Positions 4,923 through 22,197 of a DNA stretch of 42,901 bases are shown here, in pieces (positions within the stretch are counted from its first letter, which is position 1; the number at the start of each line of letters is the position of its first letter). The position numbers and the translations under genes are program-made. Source of the stretch: Phycisphaerales bacterium (GTDB taxonomy: Bacteria > Planctomycetota > Phycisphaerae > Phycisphaerales > SM1A02); NCBI GenBank assembly GCA_022446795.1, contig JAKVBX010000002.1, forward strand, positions 1 through 42,901, written 5' to 3'. Below the pieces are notes generated by a model, which was given only the letters and a program-made list of their open reading frames with translations, did not search any database and was not told the origin of the DNA.

Positions 4923-7322
4923 ATGAACCTCCTGCCCCTTGCCATCCTGCTGCTCCCGCTTCCCGCGGGGATCGATGCCGGAAGTGACTGGCCACCGGAG
5001 CTGCCCACGGCTCAACGCACGCAAGCGAGGGAAACCGTGTTGCCTGCCTCCGTCACCGGCACCCGGGACGAGGACGGTGCCTGGACGCTACTCTTCACCT
5101 TCACACCCGGCATGGAGGCCAACCGCATCACGTTGGCGGGCAGTTTCAACCACTGGAACCGTTCCGCCAACCCCCTGCGACCCCGAGAAGATGGGACCTG
5201 GACTACCCGGCTATCGCTTCCCGACGGCACGCACTGGTACAAGTTCGTCATCGACGAACAGGTGTGGCGGGCGGATCCCCTCAATCCCGACACGGAACCG
5301 GACTCGTTTGGTGGAGAGAACTCGGTCCTTCGACTCGGGTCCGAAGCCAACCTCGATACCTCCGGCGCCCAGGTCGGTGACGGTCTCATCGACGCCTCGG
5401 GACTGGCTCATCGACCCGCCCTGCCGCTCTACCGGCAACAGCGGGATCCCGGCTCGTGGCGGATCCGGATGCGAACACTCCACCAGGATGTCGAAGCCGT
5501 CACGCTGGTGCGGGATGGCCTCCCCCCGGTGGAGATGCACCCGCTGCTTCATGATCATCAGTTCCAATGGTGGGAGACCGTGGTCCCCCATGTGCCCGAC
5601 GTCGCCTACACCTTTATCATCCGCGACGGTGAACGCCGCGAACGCCATCCGAACCTCTACACCATGAGCGATTCCGACCAACCCGTGTTCGACACGCCGG
5701 ACTGGGTCCGCGACGCCGTGTGGTACCAGATCATGGTCGATCGGTTCCGCAGCGGTGGAACGGACAATGACCCCGACCCCGTTCGCCCATGGACCTCGGC
5801 CTGGTATGAGCCCAGTCCATGGGAAGGCCAGGACGGACAGTCCTTCTACGAGTACTACGTCTTCTCCCGACGCTATGGCGGCGACTTCCAGGGACTCCTG
5901 CAGAAGCTCGACTACCTCCGCGAACTCGGGGTGAACACGCTGTATCTCAACCCGGTCTTCGAGGCCGACAGCCCGCACAAGTACAACGCCACGAGCTTCA
6001 TTCACATCGACCAGGCGCTTGGGCAAGGCAGCGACTACGCCGCCGCGGAACGCCAGGAGGACATCCTGGATCCGACCACCTGGACCTGGACGGAAAGCGA
6101 CCGCCTCTTTCTCGACTTCCTGAAGGTCGCGAAGTCCCGCGGATTCCGGGTCGTCATCGACGGTGTCTTCAACCACGTCGGCGTCGCGCACCCGGCCTTC
6201 CGCGACGTGATGGAGAACGGCCAGGACTCGCGATACGCCGACTGGTTCGCCATCACGTCCTGGGAGCCCTTCGACTACGACGCCTGGGGTGGCTTCAAGA
6301 GCCTCCCGGTCTTCCGCAAGAATGATGAACACGGCATCGCGTCGGAAGAAGTTCGTGATCACATCATGAATGTCACCCGCCGATGGATGGACCCTGACGG
6401 AGACGGTGATCCATCGGACGGCATCGACGGTTGGCGACTGGATGTGCCCAACGAGATCCCCCGACCGTTCTGGGTCACCTGGCGGAAACACGTCAAGTCG
6501 ATCAACCCCGAGGCCTACATCACCGGTGAGATCTGGACTCGCGCAGATGAATGGCTTGATGGCGAGACCTTCGATGCGGTCATGAACTACCCCTTCGCCG
6601 AGGCCAGCCTGAGCTGGATCGGGGATCGCGAGAACCGCATCTCGCCGACGGAACTGGACCGCCGCCTCGCCGAGCTGCGGATGGCCTATCCGGATGCCGC
6701 CACGATGGTCATGCAGAACCTGCTGGACAGCCACGACACCGATCGACTGGTGTCGAAGATCCACAATCCCGATCGCCCCTATGACGAGGGAAATCGTGAG
6801 CAGGATGACGACACCTATGACGGTTCCAAGCCACCGGAAGATGACTATCGGCGGGCTCGACTGGCCGCGCTGCTGCAGATGACCTACGTCGGCAGCCCGA
6901 TGATCTACTACGGCGACGAGGTGGGAATCTGGGGATCGGACGATCCCAACAACCGAAAGCCGATGCTCTGGCCGGACCTGCAGCCCTACGCGGACGAGGG
7001 CTACGCGGTCATGCCCGAGCATCTCGATTTCTACCGACGGGCGATCGCCCTCCGCAATGACTCGCCGGCCCTTCGTCGTGGTGACTTCCAGACCGTGCAC
7101 CTGCATGACGACAACAACACCTGGGCCTTCATCCGATCCCACGAGGGCGAGGACGTCCTGGTCGTGCTCAATGCCTCGGAACAGGATTCCACCATCGAGC
7201 TGCCTCACGTTGGCGAGGGCTGGGAACTCGTGCTGTCCCAACCACCCACCGCGGACGTGGGCGCCCCACCGCAGGTGATGGCTCCCGCCATCGGCGGTGC
7301 CGTGTGGCGACGGCGACCATGA
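4923..7322 (+). CDS. Secreted GH13 alpha-amylase/neopullulanase-type glucanohydrolase
   Basis: Cuts alpha-1,4-glucans outside the cytoplasm; 799 aa. A short signal peptide covers residues 1-19 (LLPLAILLLPLPAG). An N-terminal glycogen-binding-like beta domain follows, with ITLAGSFNHWN and DGTHWYKFVID. A second N-domain with VPDVAYTFIIRDG resembles the CBM34-type domains of neopullulanases. The GH13 barrel begins at DAVWYQIMVDRFRSG. Conserved regions are DGVFNHVG, GWRLDVPNE with nucleophile Asp507, ITGEIW with acid/base Glu536, and LLDSHDTDR with Asp605. The residue spacing is normal for GH13, so the enzyme should be active. It is divergent from the importer and overlaps malQ by 4 nt, making it the first gene of a glucan-use operon. 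Exact product specificity (amylase, neopullulanase or cyclomaltodextrinase) cannot be read from sequence. Confidence 0.88.
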   Translation: MNLLPLAILLLPLPAGIDAGSDWPPELPTAQRTQARETVLPASVTGTRDEDGAWTLLFTFTPGMEANRITLAGSFNHWNRSANPLRPREDGTWTTRLSLPDGTHWYKFVIDEQVWRADPLNPDTEPDSFGGENSVLRLGSEANLDTSGAQVGDGLIDASGLAHRPALPLYRQQRDPGSWRIRMRTLHQDVEAVTLVRDGLPPVEMHPLLHDHQFQWWETVVPHVPDVAYTFIIRDGERRERHPNLYTMSDSDQPVFDTPDWVRDAVWYQIMVDRFRSGGTDNDPDPVRPWTSAWYEPSPWEGQDGQSFYEYYVFSRRYGGDFQGLLQKLDYLRELGVNTLYLNPVFEADSPHKYNATSFIHIDQALGQGSDYAAAERQEDILDPTTWTWTESDRLFLDFLKVAKSRGFRVVIDGVFNHVGVAHPAFRDVMENGQDSRYADWFAITSWEPFDYDAWGGFKSLPVFRKNDEHGIASEEVRDHIMNVTRRWMDPDGDGDPSDGIDGWRLDVPNEIPRPFWVTWRKHVKSINPEAYITGEIWTRADEWLDGETFDAVMNYPFAEASLSWIGDRENRISPTELDRRLAELRMAYPDAATMVMQNLLDSHDTDRLVSKIHNPDRPYDEGNREQDDDTYDGSKPPEDDYRRARLAALLQMTYVGSPMIYYGDEVGIWGSDDPNNRKPMLWPDLQPYADEGYAVMPEHLDFYRRAIALRNDSPALRRGDFQTVHLHDDNNTWAFIRSHEGEDVLVVLNASEQDSTIELPHVGEGWELVLSQPPTADVGAPPQVMAPAIGGAVWRRRP

Positions 7323-12237: not shown

Positions 12238-14307
12238 ATGAACATGGCTTCCCAAGCATCCCCATCTCACCCGTTTGTACGAGTCATCCGGTCATCAGCA
12301 GCGATGCTTGCAGCCGCCCTGCTGCTGTGCGGGCCCGCCCTGGGCGAGCCCTCCGAGCGGGCGGGCGTCGGCGCGATTCCCTACAACGAGGATGGCCAGA
12401 GCGGCGTGACGTTCCGCGTCTGGGCCCCCAACGCCGATGCGGTGGGCGTGGCCGGGACCTTCAACTCCTGGCAGCCCTATGCCAACCTGCTGTCCCCCGA
12501 GGGTGATGGCCACTTCTCGATCGACCTGCCGAGCGCCGAGGCCGGCGATGGCTACAAGTGGATCATCATCAATGGTGGTGACACGCTCTGGCGGAATGAC
12601 CCCCGGGCTCGTGACCTGACCAACTCAACCGGTCACTCGATCGTCGTCGATCCGGACGCCTACCAGTGGTCGGCCGATGGCTACGTCCCGCCGTCATGGA
12701 GCGAGATGGTCGTCTATGAGATGCACGTGGGCACCTTCGGCCTGGAGGCTGGCGATGACGTCCCGGGTGATCTCTCGGGCGCCATGGCTCACCTGGACTA
12801 CCTCGAGTCACTGGGCGTCAACGTGATCGAGCTGATGCCCATGTGCGAGTTCCCGGGAGAGATCTCGTGGGGCTACAACCCGTCCTATCCCTTCTCGGTC
12901 GAGAGCACCTACGGCGAGCCCGATACGCTCAAGGCCTTTGTCGATGCCTGTCACGACCGCAACATCGCCGTGTTCGGCGACCTCGTCTTCAATCACCTGG
13001 GGCCCAACGACATGGACCTCTGGCAGTTCGACGGATGGTCGCCCGAGCCCAGTTACGGCGGAATCTACTTCTACAACGACTATCGCTCATACACGCCCTG
13101 GGGCAATACCCGCCCTGACTTCGGTCGCCCTGAAGTCCGGAGTTTCCTGCAGGACAACCTCCGCATGTGGCTGGACGAGTACCGCTTCGATGGTGTCCGC
13201 ATCGATGGGGTCCGGTGGATTCGCACGGTGGGCTTCAGTGGCGAGGAGATCCCCGAGGGCTGGTCACTCCTGCAGTGGTTCAATGACGAGGTGAATGGGT
13301 CCACCCCCTGGAAGCTGATGATCGCGGAAGACATGGATTCCAATCACTGGATCACGCGATCGACCGGCGAAGGTGGTGCCGGGTTCGACACCCAGTGGGA
13401 CCCCTATTTCGTGCACCCGATGCGGGATGCGATGGTGACGGTCAATGACTTCGACCGCAGCATGTTGGCGGTCAAGGACTCCATCTCGTACCAGTACAAC
13501 GGCGCCCCCTTCCAGCGGATCATCTACACCGAGTCACACGACGAGGTCGCCAATGGGCGAAGCCGCGTCCCCGAGGAAATCTGGCCGGGTAATGCCGCGA
13601 GTTGGTTCTCGAAGAAGCGATCCACGCTGGGGGCCGCCGTGCTCCTGACGAGCCCGGGTATCCCGATGCTCTTCCAGGGGCAGGAGTTCCTCGAGGACGG
13701 CTGGTTCGATGACCAGGTACCCCTGGACTGGACCAAGGCCGAGACCTACTCGGGCATTCTGCAACTCTATCGCGACCTTATCGCCCTCCGGACCAACAAG
13801 GCCGGGCAGACGGCCGGGTTGGCCGGTCCGAATCTCAATGTCTTCCACCTCAATGACACCGACAAGGTGCTCGCCTGGCACCGTTGGGACCAGGGCGGTG
13901 AGGGCGATGATGTGGTCGTCGTGGCCAATTTCAAGCAGCAATCGTGGACGAATTACCGCATCGGATTGCCGAGGGGCGGAACCTGGAAGGTACGCTTCAA
14001 CAGTGATTCGATCATCTACGATGATGATTACGACGACCATCCGGCCTGGGATGTCGAAGCCCAGCCGGTCCCGCAGGATGGCCTCGGCTGGAGCGCTGAT
14101 CTGTCCTTCGGCCGATACACGACACTCATCCTGTCCCAATCGACTCCCTGCAATGGCGATGCGAACACCGATGGGACCGTGGATGTTGACGACGTCCTGA
14201 TGATCATCTCCGGCTGGGGATCGAGCGATGGAGACGTCACGGGAGATGGGAACACGGGGGTGGATGACCTGCTGCTGGTCCTGAAGCAATTCGGAGGTTG
14301 CCCATGA
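12238..14307 (+). CDS. Secreted GH13 enzyme like glycogen branching enzyme, dockerin-tagged
   Basis: Exported alpha-glucan-active enzyme, 689 aa. A signal peptide covers about residues 1-36 (SSAAMLAAALLLCGPALG). A CBM48-like domain follows (FRVWAPNADAVGVAGTFNSW). The GH13 barrel shows VYEMHVGTFG, DLVFNHLG, GVRIDGVRWI with nucleophile Asp323, LMIAEDM with Glu364, and YTESHDEVANGR with Asp435. SHDEV and GQEFLEDGWFDD resemble branching enzymes and related maltooligosyl enzymes more than ordinary amylases. Residues 638-689 carry two dockerin-type calcium loops (DANTDGTVDVDD and DVTGDGNTGVDD). Canonical branching enzymes are cytoplasmic, so a secreted, dockerin-tagged one is unusual; it may instead be an amylase of a related subfamily. 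ATG 12238 is chosen, with ATG 12244 equally possible. The stop overlaps the pseudopilin start by 4 nt. Confidence 0.82.
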   Translation: MNMASQASPSHPFVRVIRSSAAMLAAALLLCGPALGEPSERAGVGAIPYNEDGQSGVTFRVWAPNADAVGVAGTFNSWQPYANLLSPEGDGHFSIDLPSAEAGDGYKWIIINGGDTLWRNDPRARDLTNSTGHSIVVDPDAYQWSADGYVPPSWSEMVVYEMHVGTFGLEAGDDVPGDLSGAMAHLDYLESLGVNVIELMPMCEFPGEISWGYNPSYPFSVESTYGEPDTLKAFVDACHDRNIAVFGDLVFNHLGPNDMDLWQFDGWSPEPSYGGIYFYNDYRSYTPWGNTRPDFGRPEVRSFLQDNLRMWLDEYRFDGVRIDGVRWIRTVGFSGEEIPEGWSLLQWFNDEVNGSTPWKLMIAEDMDSNHWITRSTGEGGAGFDTQWDPYFVHPMRDAMVTVNDFDRSMLAVKDSISYQYNGAPFQRIIYTESHDEVANGRSRVPEEIWPGNAASWFSKKRSTLGAAVLLTSPGIPMLFQGQEFLEDGWFDDQVPLDWTKAETYSGILQLYRDLIALRTNKAGQTAGLAGPNLNVFHLNDTDKVLAWHRWDQGGEGDDVVVVANFKQQSWTNYRIGLPRGGTWKVRFNSDSIIYDDDYDDHPAWDVEAQPVPQDGLGWSADLSFGRYTTLILSQSTPCNGDANTDGTVDVDDVLMIISGWGSSDGDVTGDGNTGVDDLLLVLKQFGGCP

Positions 14308-16645: not shown

Positions 16646-16719
16646 CCCTAGGCCTCCTTGATTCCCGTCCAATGCCGGGGATGAGCAATTTGCCGGGCGG
16701 GCCGGGCCGGCCACAGAGC

Positions 16720-16725
16720 TACACT
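16720..16725 (+). promoter_or_regulatory. -10-like box 6 nt before the gspE-type start
   Basis: TACACT lies at 16720-16725 and ATG begins at 16732, which would place the transcription start at or next to the start codon. There is no Shine-Dalgarno sequence. No good -35 is visible at 16-18 bp spacing. Confidence 0.35.
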
Positions 16726-16731
16726 GGACCC

Positions 16732-18396
16732 ATGGGGATCGGCCTGCTGCTCCAGGAACGCGGCCTCGTCAGTCGAGATCAACTGGACGAGGCGATCGAG
16801 ACGCAAACCCGCACCGGGGAGCGGCTCGATCGCGTGCTGGTCCGGATGGGCTACGTCCGGAGCGAGGATGTCCTGCAGGCGATCGGCCAGCAGTTCTCGA
16901 TGCCCATCGTCGATCTCGCCTCCCAGGAGGTCCCCGAGGAAACACTGCAGCTGCTGCCGCCCCGCCTCGTCTTCAAGCAGCAGTGCGTCCCCATCGAGCA
17001 CCAGGGCAATACGCTCCGGGTGGCAACGTGCGATCCCTTCGAACTGACCGCCTTTGATGAGCTGCGACTGCTCACCAACATGGACATCGAGTTGGTCCTC
17101 GCGGACGAGACCGACCTGCGCAAGTTCATCCGGACCCACTACGGCGTCGCTGGCGACACCCTGGAAGCCCTCGGGGCTGGACAGGAGATGGCCGAGGACA
17201 CCGCGGACACCGGCGAGGACGGGCTGGACCAGGCTGAACAGGCCAGCGTCATCCGGCTCGTCAATGACCTGCTCGTGGAAGCAGTCCGGGAACGGGCGAC
17301 CGATGTTCACATCGAACCCTACGAGGACTCCCTGGCGATCCGGTATCGCGTGGACGGTGTCCTGGTCCAGGCCGGCGTACCCGCCACGGTGAACCAGTTC
17401 CGCAATGCCATCGTCAGTCGCCTCAAGATCATGGCGAACCTGAACGTGGCGGAGAAACGTGTCCCGCAGGACGGCCGGATCACGCTGCGGCGCAACGGTC
17501 GCGAGTACGACCTGCGAATCTCGATCATTCCCATGCTCTTCGGTGAAGGCGTGGTCATCCGAATCCTCTCCAAGACCGTCGCCCTGCTGGAACTGGATGA
17601 GCTGGGCATGGAACCGGAGGTCAAGCAACACTGGGAACAGCTGATCTCCCGTCCCCACGGCATCCTCCTGGTCACGGGCCCGACGGGCTCAGGCAAGTCC
17701 ACCACGCTCTATGCCTCGCTGAACCAGATCGTCTCCGACGAGGTCAAGATCATCACCGTCGAGGATCCTGCCGAGTACAACATCGTCGGCGTCAACCAGA
17801 TCCAGGTGCAGCGGGAAGTCGGACTGGACTTCGCCACCGGGCTGCGGTCGATCCTCCGACATGACCCGGATGTCATCATGGTCGGCGAGATCCGGGATCG
17901 CGAGACCGCCGAGATGGCGGTGCAGGCCTCGCTCACCGGCCACCTCGTCTTCAGCACGCTGCATACCAATGACGCCGCCGGTGCCCTGCCGCGTCTGCTG
18001 GACATGGGTATCGAGCCCTTCCTCGTCAGCAGCACGATCGAAGGCGTGCTGGCCCAGCGGCTGGTCCGCCGAGTCTGCGATGAGTGCGGCATGCCCTGGC
18101 GGCCTGAACCCACCGACCTGCCCCAGGGATGGCCCCTCCCCGACACCCCCCTTCGACGGGGTGCCGGCTGCCGGGAGTGCCGGAACACGGGCTTCCACGG
18201 CCGCGTCGGCATCTACGAACTGCTGAGGATCGACGAACACCTCCGGGAGATGATCGTCCAGCGGACCAATGCCAGCCGGATCGCCGAGGAAGCGAGCCAG
18301 GCCGGGCTGCTCCACACCCTGGTCGCCAGTGGACGGATCAAGGTCGCCGGTGGACTGACCATCCCAGCAGAGGTGGCCCGGGCCACCCGGGATTGA
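16732..18396 (+). CDS. Type II secretion / type IV pilus assembly ATPase (GspE/PilB)
   Basis: Cytoplasmic hexameric ATPase driving pseudopilus or pilus assembly; 554 aa. The N-terminal MshEN/GspE-N domain begins MGIGLLLQERGLVSRDQLDEA. The core shows Walker A GPTGSGKSTTLY with Lys322, the Asp box VEDPAEY, Walker B HDPDVIMVGEIRDRET and the His box GHLVFSTLHTNDA. Near the C-terminus, CDEC and CREC form the four-cysteine zinc site of GspE/PilB proteins. ATG 16732 is chosen because the N-domain begins there; an in-frame ATG at 16672 would add 20 Gly/Pro-rich residues. No gspF, gspG or pilC is adjacent, so the other parts of the machine are elsewhere. It is the likely motor for the pseudopilin 1.5 kb upstream, but I cannot decide between GspE and PilB. 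Confidence 0.88.
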   Translation: MGIGLLLQERGLVSRDQLDEAIETQTRTGERLDRVLVRMGYVRSEDVLQAIGQQFSMPIVDLASQEVPEETLQLLPPRLVFKQQCVPIEHQGNTLRVATCDPFELTAFDELRLLTNMDIELVLADETDLRKFIRTHYGVAGDTLEALGAGQEMAEDTADTGEDGLDQAEQASVIRLVNDLLVEAVRERATDVHIEPYEDSLAIRYRVDGVLVQAGVPATVNQFRNAIVSRLKIMANLNVAEKRVPQDGRITLRRNGREYDLRISIIPMLFGEGVVIRILSKTVALLELDELGMEPEVKQHWEQLISRPHGILLVTGPTGSGKSTTLYASLNQIVSDEVKIITVEDPAEYNIVGVNQIQVQREVGLDFATGLRSILRHDPDVIMVGEIRDRETAEMAVQASLTGHLVFSTLHTNDAAGALPRLLDMGIEPFLVSSTIEGVLAQRLVRRVCDECGMPWRPEPTDLPQGWPLPDTPLRRGAGCRECRNTGFHGRVGIYELLRIDEHLREMIVQRTNASRIAEEASQAGLLHTLVASGRIKVAGGLTIPAEVARATRD

Positions 18397-18575: not shown

Positions 18576-19949
18576 ATGGCTATTCGATCGACGACGGGTA
18601 CTGGCGTCGTTGTCGCGCTGGTGGTGTTCATCATCCTCAGCCTCGCGTTGCTTGCCACCACGATCATCTTCTACAGCCAGAAGGGCAAGGAGATGGAAGA
18701 GGCGTCCAACGCTGAAAGCCAACTGAACAAGGTCGCCTCCACCACGGAGCGGAATTCCGAGGGATTCAAGGCGCTGGACTCAACCTCCGGCCAGAAGACG
18801 GTCTACGGCTACCTGAGCGAGCAGCACAAGGCCCTCCAGGATTACGTCGGCAGCCCCCTCGAGATCGACGATCTTCGCCAGTCCTACAGCGACACCCTCG
18901 GCGTCGACACGAGCAGCTCACTGTGGACCCACATGCAGAATTCCCGGCGTCAGCTGGATGAGAACATGGACACGATCGGCACGCTTCGAGCCCGTGTCAG
19001 CCAACTCCAGGAACAGAACGAGGATCTCAACACCCGGCTGCAGTCCGCGGAACGAGAGCGTGATGTGACGCTGGAGGCCAATGTCGATCGGCAGCTCCAG
19101 GACATCAACCAGGCGGATTCCAAGTACGAGCAGCAGGTCGCGACCGCATTGGATGACCTGGAACGCGCCAAGGAGCGCAACCGAACCGGTTACCTGGGCC
19201 AGATCCAGGATCTCGAACGGGAAGTCGATCGTCTCAGTGACGAGAACGTCCGGGGAGAGAGCCGCATCCAGGAACTGCAGACCCTCGTCAATCGCAGCCG
19301 CATCCAGCCCAAGGACCCCGCGAATCTCGTCGACGGCGCCGTCATCGAGGTCGCCGGCCGAGGCGATCGCGTCTACATCGACCGAGGCAAGGCTGACCAG
19401 ATCGTGCTGGGCATGACCTTCGAGGTCTACGACGATGCCGCCCAGATCCGGCCCGATGCCGAAGGCAACTTCCCCCGCGGGAAGGCCAGCATCCAGGTCG
19501 TCAAGATCGGCGACACCACCTCGACCGCCAAGGTCACCCGGGCGACCCGGGGACGACCGGTCGTCAGCGACGACGTGATTGCCAACGCGATCTACGATCC
19601 GAACTACACCTTCAAGTTCCTCGTGCACGGCCGATTCGATGTCGATGGTGACGGACGAGCGACCGCCGAGGAGACCGACTACCTGAAGCGGCAGGTCGAA
19701 GCCTGGGGCGGAATGGTCCTGAAGGAAGACCGCGTGACGGGCGACCTGGACTTCCTGGTCCTCGGCGTCGAGCCTCCGAACCCGCTTCCGCCGGCGGCCA
19801 ACGCCACCGAGCGGCAGATCCAGGACATCCTCGAACTGCGGATGACGCATCAGCAGTACCAGGACCTGTTCGAAGCGGCCCAGAAGGCTGACATCCCGGT
19901 CCTCAACGCCAACAGGCTGTACATCCTGACCGGCCAGACCGGGCTCTGA
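18576..19949 (+). CDS. Membrane-anchored coiled-coil protein with FlgT-C-like and BRCT-like domains
   Basis: A 457-aa protein not recognised as a named family. The start ATG 18576 follows GGAGAG. Residues 9-33 are one membrane helix. Residues about 35-250 are charged heptad-rich coiled coil (QLQEQNEDLNTRLQSAERER and similar). Residues about 252-345, with VDGAVIEVAGRGDRVYIDRG and IVLGMTFEVYD, look like the small beta domain at the C-terminus of FlgT-type proteins. Residues about 346-457 resemble a BRCT domain: FKFLVHGRFD, AWGGMV, DFLVLGVEPP and AQKADIPVLNANRLYIL. Residues 355-366 (DVDGDGRATAEE) fit a canonical EF-hand calcium loop placed inside that fold. Which side of the membrane the domains face is unclear. 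Context is a secretion ATPase before and a lipid A acyltransferase after, suggesting an envelope structural or scaffold role. Confidence 0.7.
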   Translation: MAIRSTTGTGVVVALVVFIILSLALLATTIIFYSQKGKEMEEASNAESQLNKVASTTERNSEGFKALDSTSGQKTVYGYLSEQHKALQDYVGSPLEIDDLRQSYSDTLGVDTSSSLWTHMQNSRRQLDENMDTIGTLRARVSQLQEQNEDLNTRLQSAERERDVTLEANVDRQLQDINQADSKYEQQVATALDDLERAKERNRTGYLGQIQDLEREVDRLSDENVRGESRIQELQTLVNRSRIQPKDPANLVDGAVIEVAGRGDRVYIDRGKADQIVLGMTFEVYDDAAQIRPDAEGNFPRGKASIQVVKIGDTTSTAKVTRATRGRPVVSDDVIANAIYDPNYTFKFLVHGRFDVDGDGRATAEETDYLKRQVEAWGGMVLKEDRVTGDLDFLVLGVEPPNPLPPAANATERQIQDILELRMTHQQYQDLFEAAQKADIPVLNANRLYILTGQTGL

Positions 19950-19960
19950 TTCCCGGCCGT

Positions 19961-19982
19961 CCCACCGGTCTGCAGACCTGGG
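19961..19982. other. Hairpin/palindrome between the coiled-coil and acyltransferase genes
   Basis: GGTCTGCAGACC (19967-19978) is a perfect 12-bp palindrome. It is extended by CCCA (19961-19964) pairing with TGGG (19979-19982) across a 2-nt bulge. It begins 12 nt after one stop codon and ends 9 nt before the next start, so it could be a weak transcription stop, an RNA processing element or a protein site. Confidence 0.35.
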
Positions 19983-19991
19983 ATACCGTCC

Positions 19992-21035
19992 ATGCCTCGC
20001 CACCGTTCCGCCATACGGAACTGGATCGAATACCTGCCAGCGCGCGGGGTGGCTGCCGCCCTGCAGTGCTTTCCGGTGCGACAGAACCTGGAGACGGCGG
20101 CCTGGGGTGGACGGATGTACTTCCGCCTCAGTCGCAAGCGACGACTGCGGGCCGTGAGCAATATCCGGGACGCCTTCCCGGGGTGGAGCGAGGACCGCTG
20201 CGAGGCTGTTGCCCGACAGTCCGTCGAGAACATGTTCCAGTTGGCCGCCGTCGACGCCATGATGATGCCGCGGCTGCTGACGCCGGATCGATGGCCGGAC
20301 ATCCTCGATCTTGGCAACACCGTCGAGCACCTCCATCGCCTCATGGATGGTCGATCGATGCTCTTCATCACCGGCCACTGCGGCAACTGGGAGTTGCTGG
20401 GATATGGCATGTCCGTCGTGGGCTACCCGATGGCGGCCCTGGCCCGCCCGCTCGACAACGTCCTGTTGAATCGTTGGCTGCTGGGTCTGCGTGAAGCCCA
20501 CGGGCTGCGCGTGCTGACCAAGTGGGGTGCCACCCCGGAAATGCAGCGGATCATCGAGTCGAATGGACACGTCGGGTTCATCGCCGACCAGAACGCCGGT
20601 GACGCCGGCGTGTTCGTACCGTTCTTCGGCCGACTGGCATCGACCTACAAGTCGATCGGGCTGCTGGCCATGCGATATGAACTTCCCCTGCTGGTGGCGA
20701 TGGCGGAACGCCAGAACAACGACTTCTCGTATCGCCTGCACGTGGAAGATGTCATCGAACCAGCCGACTGGGCGAACCACCCCGACCCCCTGTATTACAT
20801 CACGGCCCGCTACATCCGCGGTATCGAGATGCTCGTGCGGCGGGCACCCGCCCAGTACCTGTGGATGCACCGCCGATGGAAGAGTCGACCGCGACATGAG
20901 CGCCAGGGCCAGGACGTCCCCGACGCGCTGGAGACCAGGATTCGGTCACTCCCCTGGCTGTCCGAGGACGACATCGAGTCCATCCTCGACCGATCCCGCC
21001 GGGACAGCCGTGAAGCGGGCGGCCAACGGAATTGA
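19992..21035 (+). CDS. Lipid A biosynthesis acyltransferase (LpxL/HtrB family)
   Basis: Membrane-associated acyltransferase that adds a secondary fatty acyl chain to lipid A or a related glycolipid; 347 aa. The family HX4E catalytic motif is GHCGNWE, with His129 and Glu134. Other family landmarks are MAALARPLDNVLLNRWL, GHVGFIADQNAGDAGVFVPFFG and the C-terminal QYLWMHRRWKSRP. The N-terminus (IEYLPARGVAAALQCFP) fits the amphipathic membrane-binding helix of the family. The presence of this enzyme supports a Gram-negative outer membrane. The exact acceptor and chain (LpxL, LpxM, or a lipid unrelated to LPS) cannot be told. The next gene has its own promoter 2 nt downstream of this stop codon. 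Confidence 0.87.
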   Translation: MPRHRSAIRNWIEYLPARGVAAALQCFPVRQNLETAAWGGRMYFRLSRKRRLRAVSNIRDAFPGWSEDRCEAVARQSVENMFQLAAVDAMMMPRLLTPDRWPDILDLGNTVEHLHRLMDGRSMLFITGHCGNWELLGYGMSVVGYPMAALARPLDNVLLNRWLLGLREAHGLRVLTKWGATPEMQRIIESNGHVGFIADQNAGDAGVFVPFFGRLASTYKSIGLLAMRYELPLLVAMAERQNNDFSYRLHVEDVIEPADWANHPDPLYYITARYIRGIEMLVRRAPAQYLWMHRRWKSRPRHERQGQDVPDALETRIRSLPWLSEDDIESILDRSRRDSREAGGQRN

Positions 21036-21508: not shown

Positions 21509-21835
21509 GTGTCCCATCACTTCGTGATCAGCTCCCAGAAACCCCCGACCGAGTCGGGCATGTCTTCGATGGGAAGCCGGAAGGACATCATCGCCGAGCT
21601 CGGTCGAATGAACACCTATCCTGAGCAACCGGGCGAGGACGTGCTCTGGGGCCCCGGGATCCGCATGGAGATGCGACCCGGTGAGGACCCCCTCAAGCAG
21701 ATGCTCCTCTCGATCGTGGAAGAGGAGATCGCCTGGCTCGTGATTGCCCGCATCACGCGAGCATTCAACTGGCGAATCGTCGACGTGGAGACCGGTGAAG
21801 AGATCGTGTTTGACAACGGGGACGCTACGGCATGA
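21509..21835 (+). CDS. Small protein of unknown function
   Basis: A 108-aa protein with no domain I recognise. GTG 21509 is chosen because a full AGGAGG (21498-21503) lies 5 nt upstream. The first 25 residues are Ser/Pro-rich. The central part, VLWGPGIRMEMRPGEDPLKQ, is followed by a helix with a hydrophobic stretch (MLLSIVEEEIAWLVIARI). It ends RIVDVETGEEIVF. There is no signal peptide and no clear membrane segment. It lies 16 nt after the response regulator, and its stop overlaps the next start by 4 nt, so the three genes are likely co-translated. A partner or target of the regulator is a fair guess only. Confidence 0.65.
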   Translation: MSHHFVISSQKPPTESGMSSMGSRKDIIAELGRMNTYPEQPGEDVLWGPGIRMEMRPGEDPLKQMLLSIVEEEIAWLVIARITRAFNWRIVDVETGEEIVFDNGDATA

Positions 21836-22197
21836 CCGAATCGGACACACCACACCAGGGCCTGGCCATCGATCGATCCGATACCAGGAAGTTCGAACCC
21901 ACCCTGCTGGCCGCCGTCGACTACCGCGGTGACGTGACGCTGTTGCTCGAGGATGGCTCGAGCATCGAGGGCTTTGTCTACGATCTCACCGGCGACCTGG
22001 CGACCGGGAGCGTCGGCTACATGACCAAGCAGGATGCCAGTCGCCGCCGACTGGACATCAGTGCCATCCAGAAGATCGAGTTCTCCGGCCGCGACATGGC
22101 CGAGGGCAAGTCCTTCGACACCTGGATCGAGAAGTACGTTCAGAAGAAGATCGCGGGCGAACGGGCCAGCATCGAGTGCGAACCACTCGAGGACTGA
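21832..22197 (+). CDS. Small protein of unknown function, Sm/SH3-like beta core
   Basis: A 121-aa soluble protein starting in an ATGA overlap with the previous gene. Residues about 30-85 read VDYRGDVTLLLEDGSSIEGFVYDL and RRLDISAIQKIEFSGRD (shown in parts). This pattern of short beta strands around a GxIxGxV-like turn, ending in a strand that asks I..IEF, resembles Sm-like or small SH3-like barrels. That fold call is inference. The C-terminal 40 residues are helical and charged. No enzyme motif is present. It is the last gene before a convergent operon. Confidence 0.65.
   Translation: MTESDTPHQGLAIDRSDTRKFEPTLLAAVDYRGDVTLLLEDGSSIEGFVYDLTGDLATGSVGYMTKQDASRRRLDISAIQKIEFSGRDMAEGKSFDTWIEKYVQKKIAGERASIECEPLED

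Follow-up and report, generated by a model that had tools for sequence, protein, structure and literature searches.

Chs5 is a eukaryotic, cytosolic trafficking adaptor whose BRCT domain is used outside DNA repair, at membranes, and it is not known to carry a membrane anchor or a calcium loop. FlgT, a part of the flagellar ring, is not known to have an anchored coil or a BRCT domain, and MreC combines an anchor, a coil, and a barrel with no known BRCT domain. The pockets of bacterial BRCT domains are associated with the phosphates found where DNA is nicked or ends (PMC10504179), and the XRCC1 pocket consists of Ser, Arg, and Lys (PMC4538820).

The window analyzed here is a 42,901-nucleotide stretch of DNA from a Phycisphaerales bacterium (assembly GCA_022446795.1, contig JAKVBX010000002.1), and one of its genes encodes a protein predicted to combine features of these systems (Table 1). 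Unlike the BRCT domain of LigA (PF00533), with which it shares the order of strands and helices, a Gly after strand 1, a GG pair, and a strand of the form TD-hydrophobic-G, the BRCT-like domain of this family contains an 8-residue Dx[DN]xDG insertion and a long helix-2 extension, lacks the pocket Ser/Thr, and sits on a membrane-anchored coil instead of an enzyme. The model of the domain also aligns with Chs5 of the yeast exomer (4yg8; Z 6.7). The small barrel that precedes it resembles the C-terminal domain of FlgT (PF16538; 3w1e, 8z5n), at structural Z values of 9.3–10.0 and with one relative above the Pfam cut-off, although the window protein itself falls below that line (17 vs. 27 bits). 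Finally, the inserted loop, a putative calcium site, shares D1, D/N3, D5, G6, and a later acidic residue with the Dx[DN]xDG calcium loops described in PMC3123361; the word BRCT has no occurrence in the main text of that paper.

Table 1. Predicted features of the window gene and its adjacent genes (positions are those of the window).
Feature	Positions	Strand	Evidence
Full-length gene (457 aa), encoding in order a hydrophobic anchor, a coiled coil, an FlgT_C-like barrel, and a BRCT-like domain	18576..19949	+	
Sole hydrophobic segment (residues 11-31), probably a signal anchor and putatively N-in/C-out	18606..18668	+	
Coiled-coil stretch, residues ~45-243 (limits approximate)	18708..19304	+	Weak coiled-coil family matches
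FlgT_C-like beta-barrel, residues ~252-338	19329..19589	+	Pfam FlgT_C in members; Z 10.0 to 8z5n, 9.3 to 3w1e
BRCT-like domain, residues 346-457	19611..19946	+	Model, structural Z, hhalign, relatives above Pfam cut-off
Dx[DN]xDG loop DVDGDGRATAEE (residues 355-366), an insertion within the BRCT b1-a1 turn	19638..19673	+	
Extension within BRCT helix 2 and ahead of it, residues ~404-437	19785..19886	+	Gap in LigA alignment; long model helix
Acyltransferase of lipid A biosynthesis (LpxL/HtrB type), downstream; 42 bases separate it from the stop	19992..21035	+	Pfam Lip_A_acyltrans 5.1e-38
Upstream T2SSE/MshEN ATPase (GspE/PilB type)	16672..18396	+	Pfam

Domain composition of the window protein

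The reading frame, which opens with ATG and closes with TGA, is a real gene: its homologues in the forward frame share 24–70% identity across alignment A1 (the profile of 60 family members), and most are matched over nearly their full length. A 659-residue antisense open reading frame (18918-20897) was rejected because the homologues conserve the forward frame. A1–A3 omit two loci: L027, which runs into a contig end, and L073, whose start is unsure. The hydrophobic segment is the only one in the protein (mean KD 3.05) and agrees with the membrane anchoring that the first-pass annotation had described. The long coiled coil of that annotation likewise has counterparts in many weak matches to coiled-coil families, chiefly inside residues 104-243, and a PDB search with the single window sequence returned matches to coiled coils only.

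By profile and predicted structure, the middle domain appears FlgT_C-like. PF16538 matches 48 of the 60 members (E ≤ 1), and among ten relatives scanned L024 exceeds the 27-bit cut-off (31.1 bits) and L059 lies below it (21 bits). The best structural matches of the modeled barrel are FlgT chains, followed by the N-terminal parts of F1-ATPase subunits at Z ~8.7.

All of the elements named in the first-pass annotation (GRF, GG, DFLVLG, IPVLNANRL, and the loop) are present in the translated frame, and the BRCT-like identity proposed from them is borne out by the Pfam scores of relatives, by alignment to LigA, and by the model. The Gly-Gly pair after helix 1 is kept in nearly all of the 62 Phycisphaerales homologues (G378 in 59, G379 in 59). 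The window protein (P0001) gave no match to PF00533 at E ≤ 10 and is thus below the Pfam gathering score, a curated line at 21.3 bits and not a biological trait. Among six relatives scanned, L132 (52.1 bits), L131 (39.4 bits), and L133 (34.1 bits) exceed this line, as does L060 (22.2 bits) among ten scanned. L165 (22.6 bits in a six-frame search) was left uncounted, the protein of the same gene, L069, not being listed at E ≤ 0.001. Across alignments, PF00533 matches 12/60 members of A3 (E ≤ 1, best 4.2e-5) and 13/40 wider members (E ≤ 0.01, best 7.7e-14). When compared by hhalign with 27 LigA BRCT domains, a set from which L163–L165 were excluded, the phylum-wide domain profile reached 97.3% (E 2.1e-11), the distant set 97.4%, the Phycisphaerae rows 83.1%, and A2, the profile of the order, 22.7%; the barrel profile, used as a control, reached 0.2%. 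A PDB search with A2 placed the BRCT domains of RFC1 and LigA at the top with weak scores (E 0.079–0.093), followed by EF-hand proteins matched through the loop.

The AlphaFold model of the C-terminal domain (pLDDT 91.9) came out BRCT-like, and not as the different fold that would have spoken against the proposal. VIA-align gave Z 8.5 to RFC over 76 residues and 8.3 to the LigA BRCT domain, and values for BRCT chains were similar with a two-domain model. Of the 50 chains listed, nearly all are BRCT proteins, the exceptions being 2yvq and 1t1j. Foldseek returned no match for the domain model at E ≤ 0.001 (best 5.3e-3, TM-scores <0.5), and nevertheless its first 27 rows were all BRCT proteins. 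Unrelated structures can score almost as high as these Z values, so it is the sequence evidence that carries the claim. Together, profile comparison and model assign the C-terminal domain to the BRCT superfamily. The helix-2 extension corresponds to a long helix at model residues 73-98, mostly without counterpart in the LigA BRCT domain. In one relative (L132:263-1693), a second BRCT-like repeat seems by eye to follow the first, the only one that Pfam matches.

The inserted loop and the phosphate pocket

The loop of the window protein, DVDGDGRATAEE, has D, D, D, and E at positions 1, 3, 5, and 12 and Gly at position 6. Its presence exceeds chance: the protein contains a single match to a strict 12-residue EF-like pattern, which turns up in 262 of 20,000 shuffles of the same sequence. 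At the loop column this pattern is found in 43 of the 62 distinct Phycisphaerales homologues, and before residue 346 in none of the 62; at the loop, 52 keep a less strict, anchored core (D-x-[DN]-x-[DN]). Position by position, Asp is invariant at position 1 (62/62), Asp/Asn occupies position 3 in 59, Asp position 5 in 51, Gly position 6 in 53, and Glu/Asp position 12 in 58, so the loss of conservation that would have undone the first reading of the loop is not seen.

The loop also lies in the first turn of the fold, as had been claimed: relative to the LigA BRCT domain, hhalign places it as an 8-residue insertion in the b1-a1 turn. The label "EF-hand loop" holds only insofar as a calcium-type loop is largely conserved. 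In the model a strand precedes the loop and a helix begins at loop position 10, and position 8 is Pro/Ala in 51/62 Phycisphaerales homologues, vs. Ile/Leu/Val in EF-hands; an EF-hand was rejected on both counts, the arrangement being strand-loop-helix and not helix-loop-helix. Strand-loop-helix is among the contexts given for Dx[DN]xDG loops, which are biased to the periplasm and the cell surface (PMC3123361).

An unlikely reading, though worth weighing, is that in the cell the loop goes without calcium and serves only as a helix cap or solvent loop, kept for folding. Such a role would fit the 19/62 homologues that lack the strict pattern, the frequent Pro/Ala at position 8, and the Thr, Glu, Arg, or Pro found at ligand positions in some members, but it accounts poorly for the invariant Asp at position 1, for the retention of positions 3, 6, and 12 noted above, and for D-x-[DN]-x-[DN] being kept in 15/15 loop members from other classes. 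In a wide alignment the anchored core is present in 6/11 sampled Phycisphaerales, in 8/12 other Phycisphaerae, and in all 15 of one set of other-class loci; in a more distant set, whose b1-a1 turn is short, it is present in 0/13. A tree built without the loop columns, with the loop label assigned by group and not by motif and with L131 and L132 as long branches, needs one change for the split between loop and no loop (SH-aLRT 87; a quick, unrooted tree). Because LigA has no loop, a single gain is the simpler reading of this unrooted tree. With the loop absent from the 13 distant loci and the strict pattern from 19/62, calcium cannot be a requirement for the role at the core of the family as a whole.

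At the position of the phosphate pocket, at the end of strand 1, the window protein has His; 61 of the 62 Phycisphaerales homologues have His, Phe, or Tyr, and one has Ser. Ser/Thr is found there in 1/62 Phycisphaerales, 1/12 other Phycisphaerae, 3/15 other-class loci, and 0/13 of the distant set, whereas relatives of LigA carry the pocket Thr/Ser in 22/27 and the partner Lys in 22/27. The signature of a phosphate-binding BRCT domain (Ser/Thr plus partner Lys) was not found in the window protein and is largely absent from the family, for which Lys was judged by eye in 12 rows. Since the pocket residue has also been lost where the loop is absent, pocket loss and loop gain are not one event, which argues against the loop having replaced the residue and also against binding of DNA ends.

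Membrane orientation and proposed role

Orientation was assessed from the net charge flanking the anchor (N-terminal minus C-terminal side), with controls taken from the same class. The family mean is +1.32 (n = 102; 69 positive, 24 zero, 9 negative). Values of +1.89 for ExbD (27/30 loci usable; 19 positive, 2 zero, 6 negative) and +2.21 for MreC (24/30 usable; 20 positive, 2 zero, 2 negative) were obtained for the two controls that we take to be C-out, and −2.96 for TatA (26/30 usable; 1 positive; at least one start looks wrong) and −2.17 for YajC (18/30 usable; 5 positive) for the two presumed to be C-in. The loci dropped from each set of 30 (TatA 4, ExbD 3, YajC 12, MreC 6) had no usable start or too few mates. 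Counts of Lys/Arg alone run in the opposite direction to net charge, the C side being richer in 74 of 102 members and the N side in 7, with 21 ties. The extracytoplasmic BRCT domain proposed at first is thus favored by its likeness in net charge to the C-out controls and by the periplasmic and surface bias of Dx[DN]xDG loops, and opposed by the Lys/Arg counts; on these sequence-derived measures, a location outside the cytoplasm is likely.

We lean, with modest confidence, toward a calcium-stabilized scaffold or adaptor of the cell envelope, held by a single anchor, whose BRCT domain works outside both the cytoplasm and DNA repair. The N-terminal helix would anchor the protein in the inner membrane, leaving the C-terminus extracytoplasmic, and the coil of ~200 residues would act as a spacer that probably oligomerizes the protein. 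According to profile and model, the far end of the coil bears two modules, the FlgT_C-like barrel and the BRCT domain. Because the pocket Ser/Thr has been lost in nearly all members, the most likely ligands of the BRCT domain are other proteins, as opposed to phosphopeptides or the ends of DNA. In the predicted fold, the loop in the b1-a1 turn adjoins the place where the pocket Ser/Thr would be, and it most likely binds one Ca2+, which would fix the turn and the start of helix 1. In Phycisphaerales, the linked acyltransferase gene suggests that the protein perhaps serves lipid A or outer-membrane assembly. More tentatively, and as a history that we hold to be possible without favoring it, the BRCT domain may have left DNA repair early in Planctomycetota, become extracytoplasmic on an anchored coil, and lost its pocket residue; in part of the phylum a Ca2+ site inserted next to the place of that residue would have followed later, making the domain a calcium-gated tip with which a core envelope scaffold binds proteins.

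An opposite topology, with the N-terminus outside and the coil, barrel, and BRCT domain in the cytoplasm, where they would tether DNA or the replication and repair machinery to the membrane, appears distinctly unlikely. It would suit the association of prokaryotic BRCT domains with the phosphates of nicked DNA and of DNA ends (PMC10504179), as well as the proximity of rho (15 of 40 loci), polA (14), and coaE (11) to the gene outside the order, the weak resemblance of the coil to SMC/Rad50, and the Lys/Arg counts taken alone. However, the difference in net charge resembles that of the C-out controls, the pocket Ser/Thr is mostly lost, and SMC matches are common for coils. FlgT, the closest counterpart of the barrel, is an exported protein, which also counts against a cytoplasmic C-terminus. 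Dx[DN]xDG loops, moreover, occur mostly in exported proteins (PMC3123361).

A cell-shape protein of the MreC kind with BRCT as an accessory is very improbable: the order of parts (anchor, coil, barrel) is the same and NCBIfam MreC weakly matches residues 187-281 of the window protein (E 0.01), but membership was rejected since the score is 15.1 bits against a cut-off of 385 and the same genome has a separate MreC (G000:C34), as do 39/41 class genomes searched, own included, while MreC is absent among the best 25 of 39 families matched by the 60 members and the best structural matches of the barrel are FlgT chains.

If the envelope scaffold reading is correct, the family would present an extracytoplasmic BRCT domain, a repair module that became part of the envelope and, next to the site of the phosphate pocket, took in a calcium-type loop. 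A literature search of titles and abstract openings, covering few subscription journals, found neither this family nor an extracytoplasmic BRCT domain described among the matches listed. The family would also offer a testable handle on the divergent planctomycete envelope; in one planctomycete species, 108 essential proteins of unknown function are phylum-specific (PMC10632474).

Distribution and gene neighborhood

Profile and sequence searches indicate that the family is kept in nearly all sampled Phycisphaerae and in most sampled planctomycetes. With the window protein as query, 60/61 genomes were matched, own genome included (E ≤ 0.01), and G015 and G054 each gave a second, partial match. 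The A1 profile matches 244/248 sampled genomes of the class, including 194/194 near-complete ones, and 249/294 genomes of the phylum sample (240/280 near-complete), the weak matches in either sample possibly resting on the coil or on LigA. Wider loci were chosen among the stronger rows of the genome-match lists, 12 representing further families within the class and 28 representing other planctomycete classes; all 28 other-class loci are matched by barrel and BRCT sub-profiles built from Phycisphaerae (E ≤ 0.01), and a hydrophobic segment is seen at their start (n = 28). In-frame extensions upstream in L037 and L038 were taken as spurious, since they overlie the opposite strand of an aminotransferase gene.

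Of the 45 phylum genomes with no A1 match, 20 were searched with A4, a profile built on the wider family. Three of these (G300, G332, G353) clearly have the family, and G425 has it in part. LigA-type or coil matches came from the remaining 16, joined in G429 and G410 by matches to the barrel portion of the profile, and in three genomes with no clear family member LigA was confirmed as the A4 match. In all 13 genomes of group f55 searched, A4 matched nothing beyond LigA-type sequences or coils, so this group may lack the family; weak A1 matches occur in two f55 genomes, G426 and G444. In G429 (C19:26193-27038), a 303-residue frame matches family profile positions 5-321, covering anchor, coil, and barrel and not the BRCT domain, and is perhaps a form that lacks this domain. 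A search for viral relatives with the C-terminal 109 residues confirmed none.

The description of the gene as lying beside secretion and lipid genes is true at the window, although the lipid link is confined to Phycisphaerales. There, 58 of the 61 testable distinct loci (the 62nd is cut by a contig end) have the lipid A acyltransferase gene downstream in the same orientation, with a median of 76 bases between the matched stretches. Its profile matches 0/40 loci outside the order (within at most ~5 kb on each side; six loci are shorter), and lipid A linkage was accordingly rejected as a general trait. The T2SSE/MshEN ATPase neighbor is present in part of the loci only and is not consistently linked. 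Outside the order, the Rho, PolA, and CoaE clusters lie mostly upstream on the other strand, and TatC (7/40) and CinA (8/40) lie downstream; these cluster identities rest on scanned representatives. As neither neighborhood is general, function cannot be read from the neighbors with confidence.

Individual loci illustrate these arrangements. All or some of rho-coaE-polA stand on the other strand beside the family gene in several loci, among them L125, L128, L129, L131, L133, and L135, and tatC and cinA follow it in several loci outside the order. In the window, the acyltransferase gene is followed by a response-regulator receiver gene and then, at 21509-22197, by two small proteins of 108 and 121 residues that have no Pfam match and whose homologues keep their order in many relatives. 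Farther upstream, at 12238-14307, an alpha-amylase family protein with CBM48 has a dockerin-like C-terminus with two DxNxDG-type repeats, as judged by eye. In L052 (5001-7494) the stop of the family gene reads TGC, leaving one open frame through the lipid A acyltransferase; this fusion was not used as evidence, as it occurs in one genome, may be an error, and is contradicted by the sister locus L053, which keeps the stop. In both L052 and L053, which belong to family f4, a GC hairpin followed by Ts is visible by eye at ~6388-6430 between the genes for the BRCT protein and the acyltransferase, and the two genes may not form one transcript in f4.
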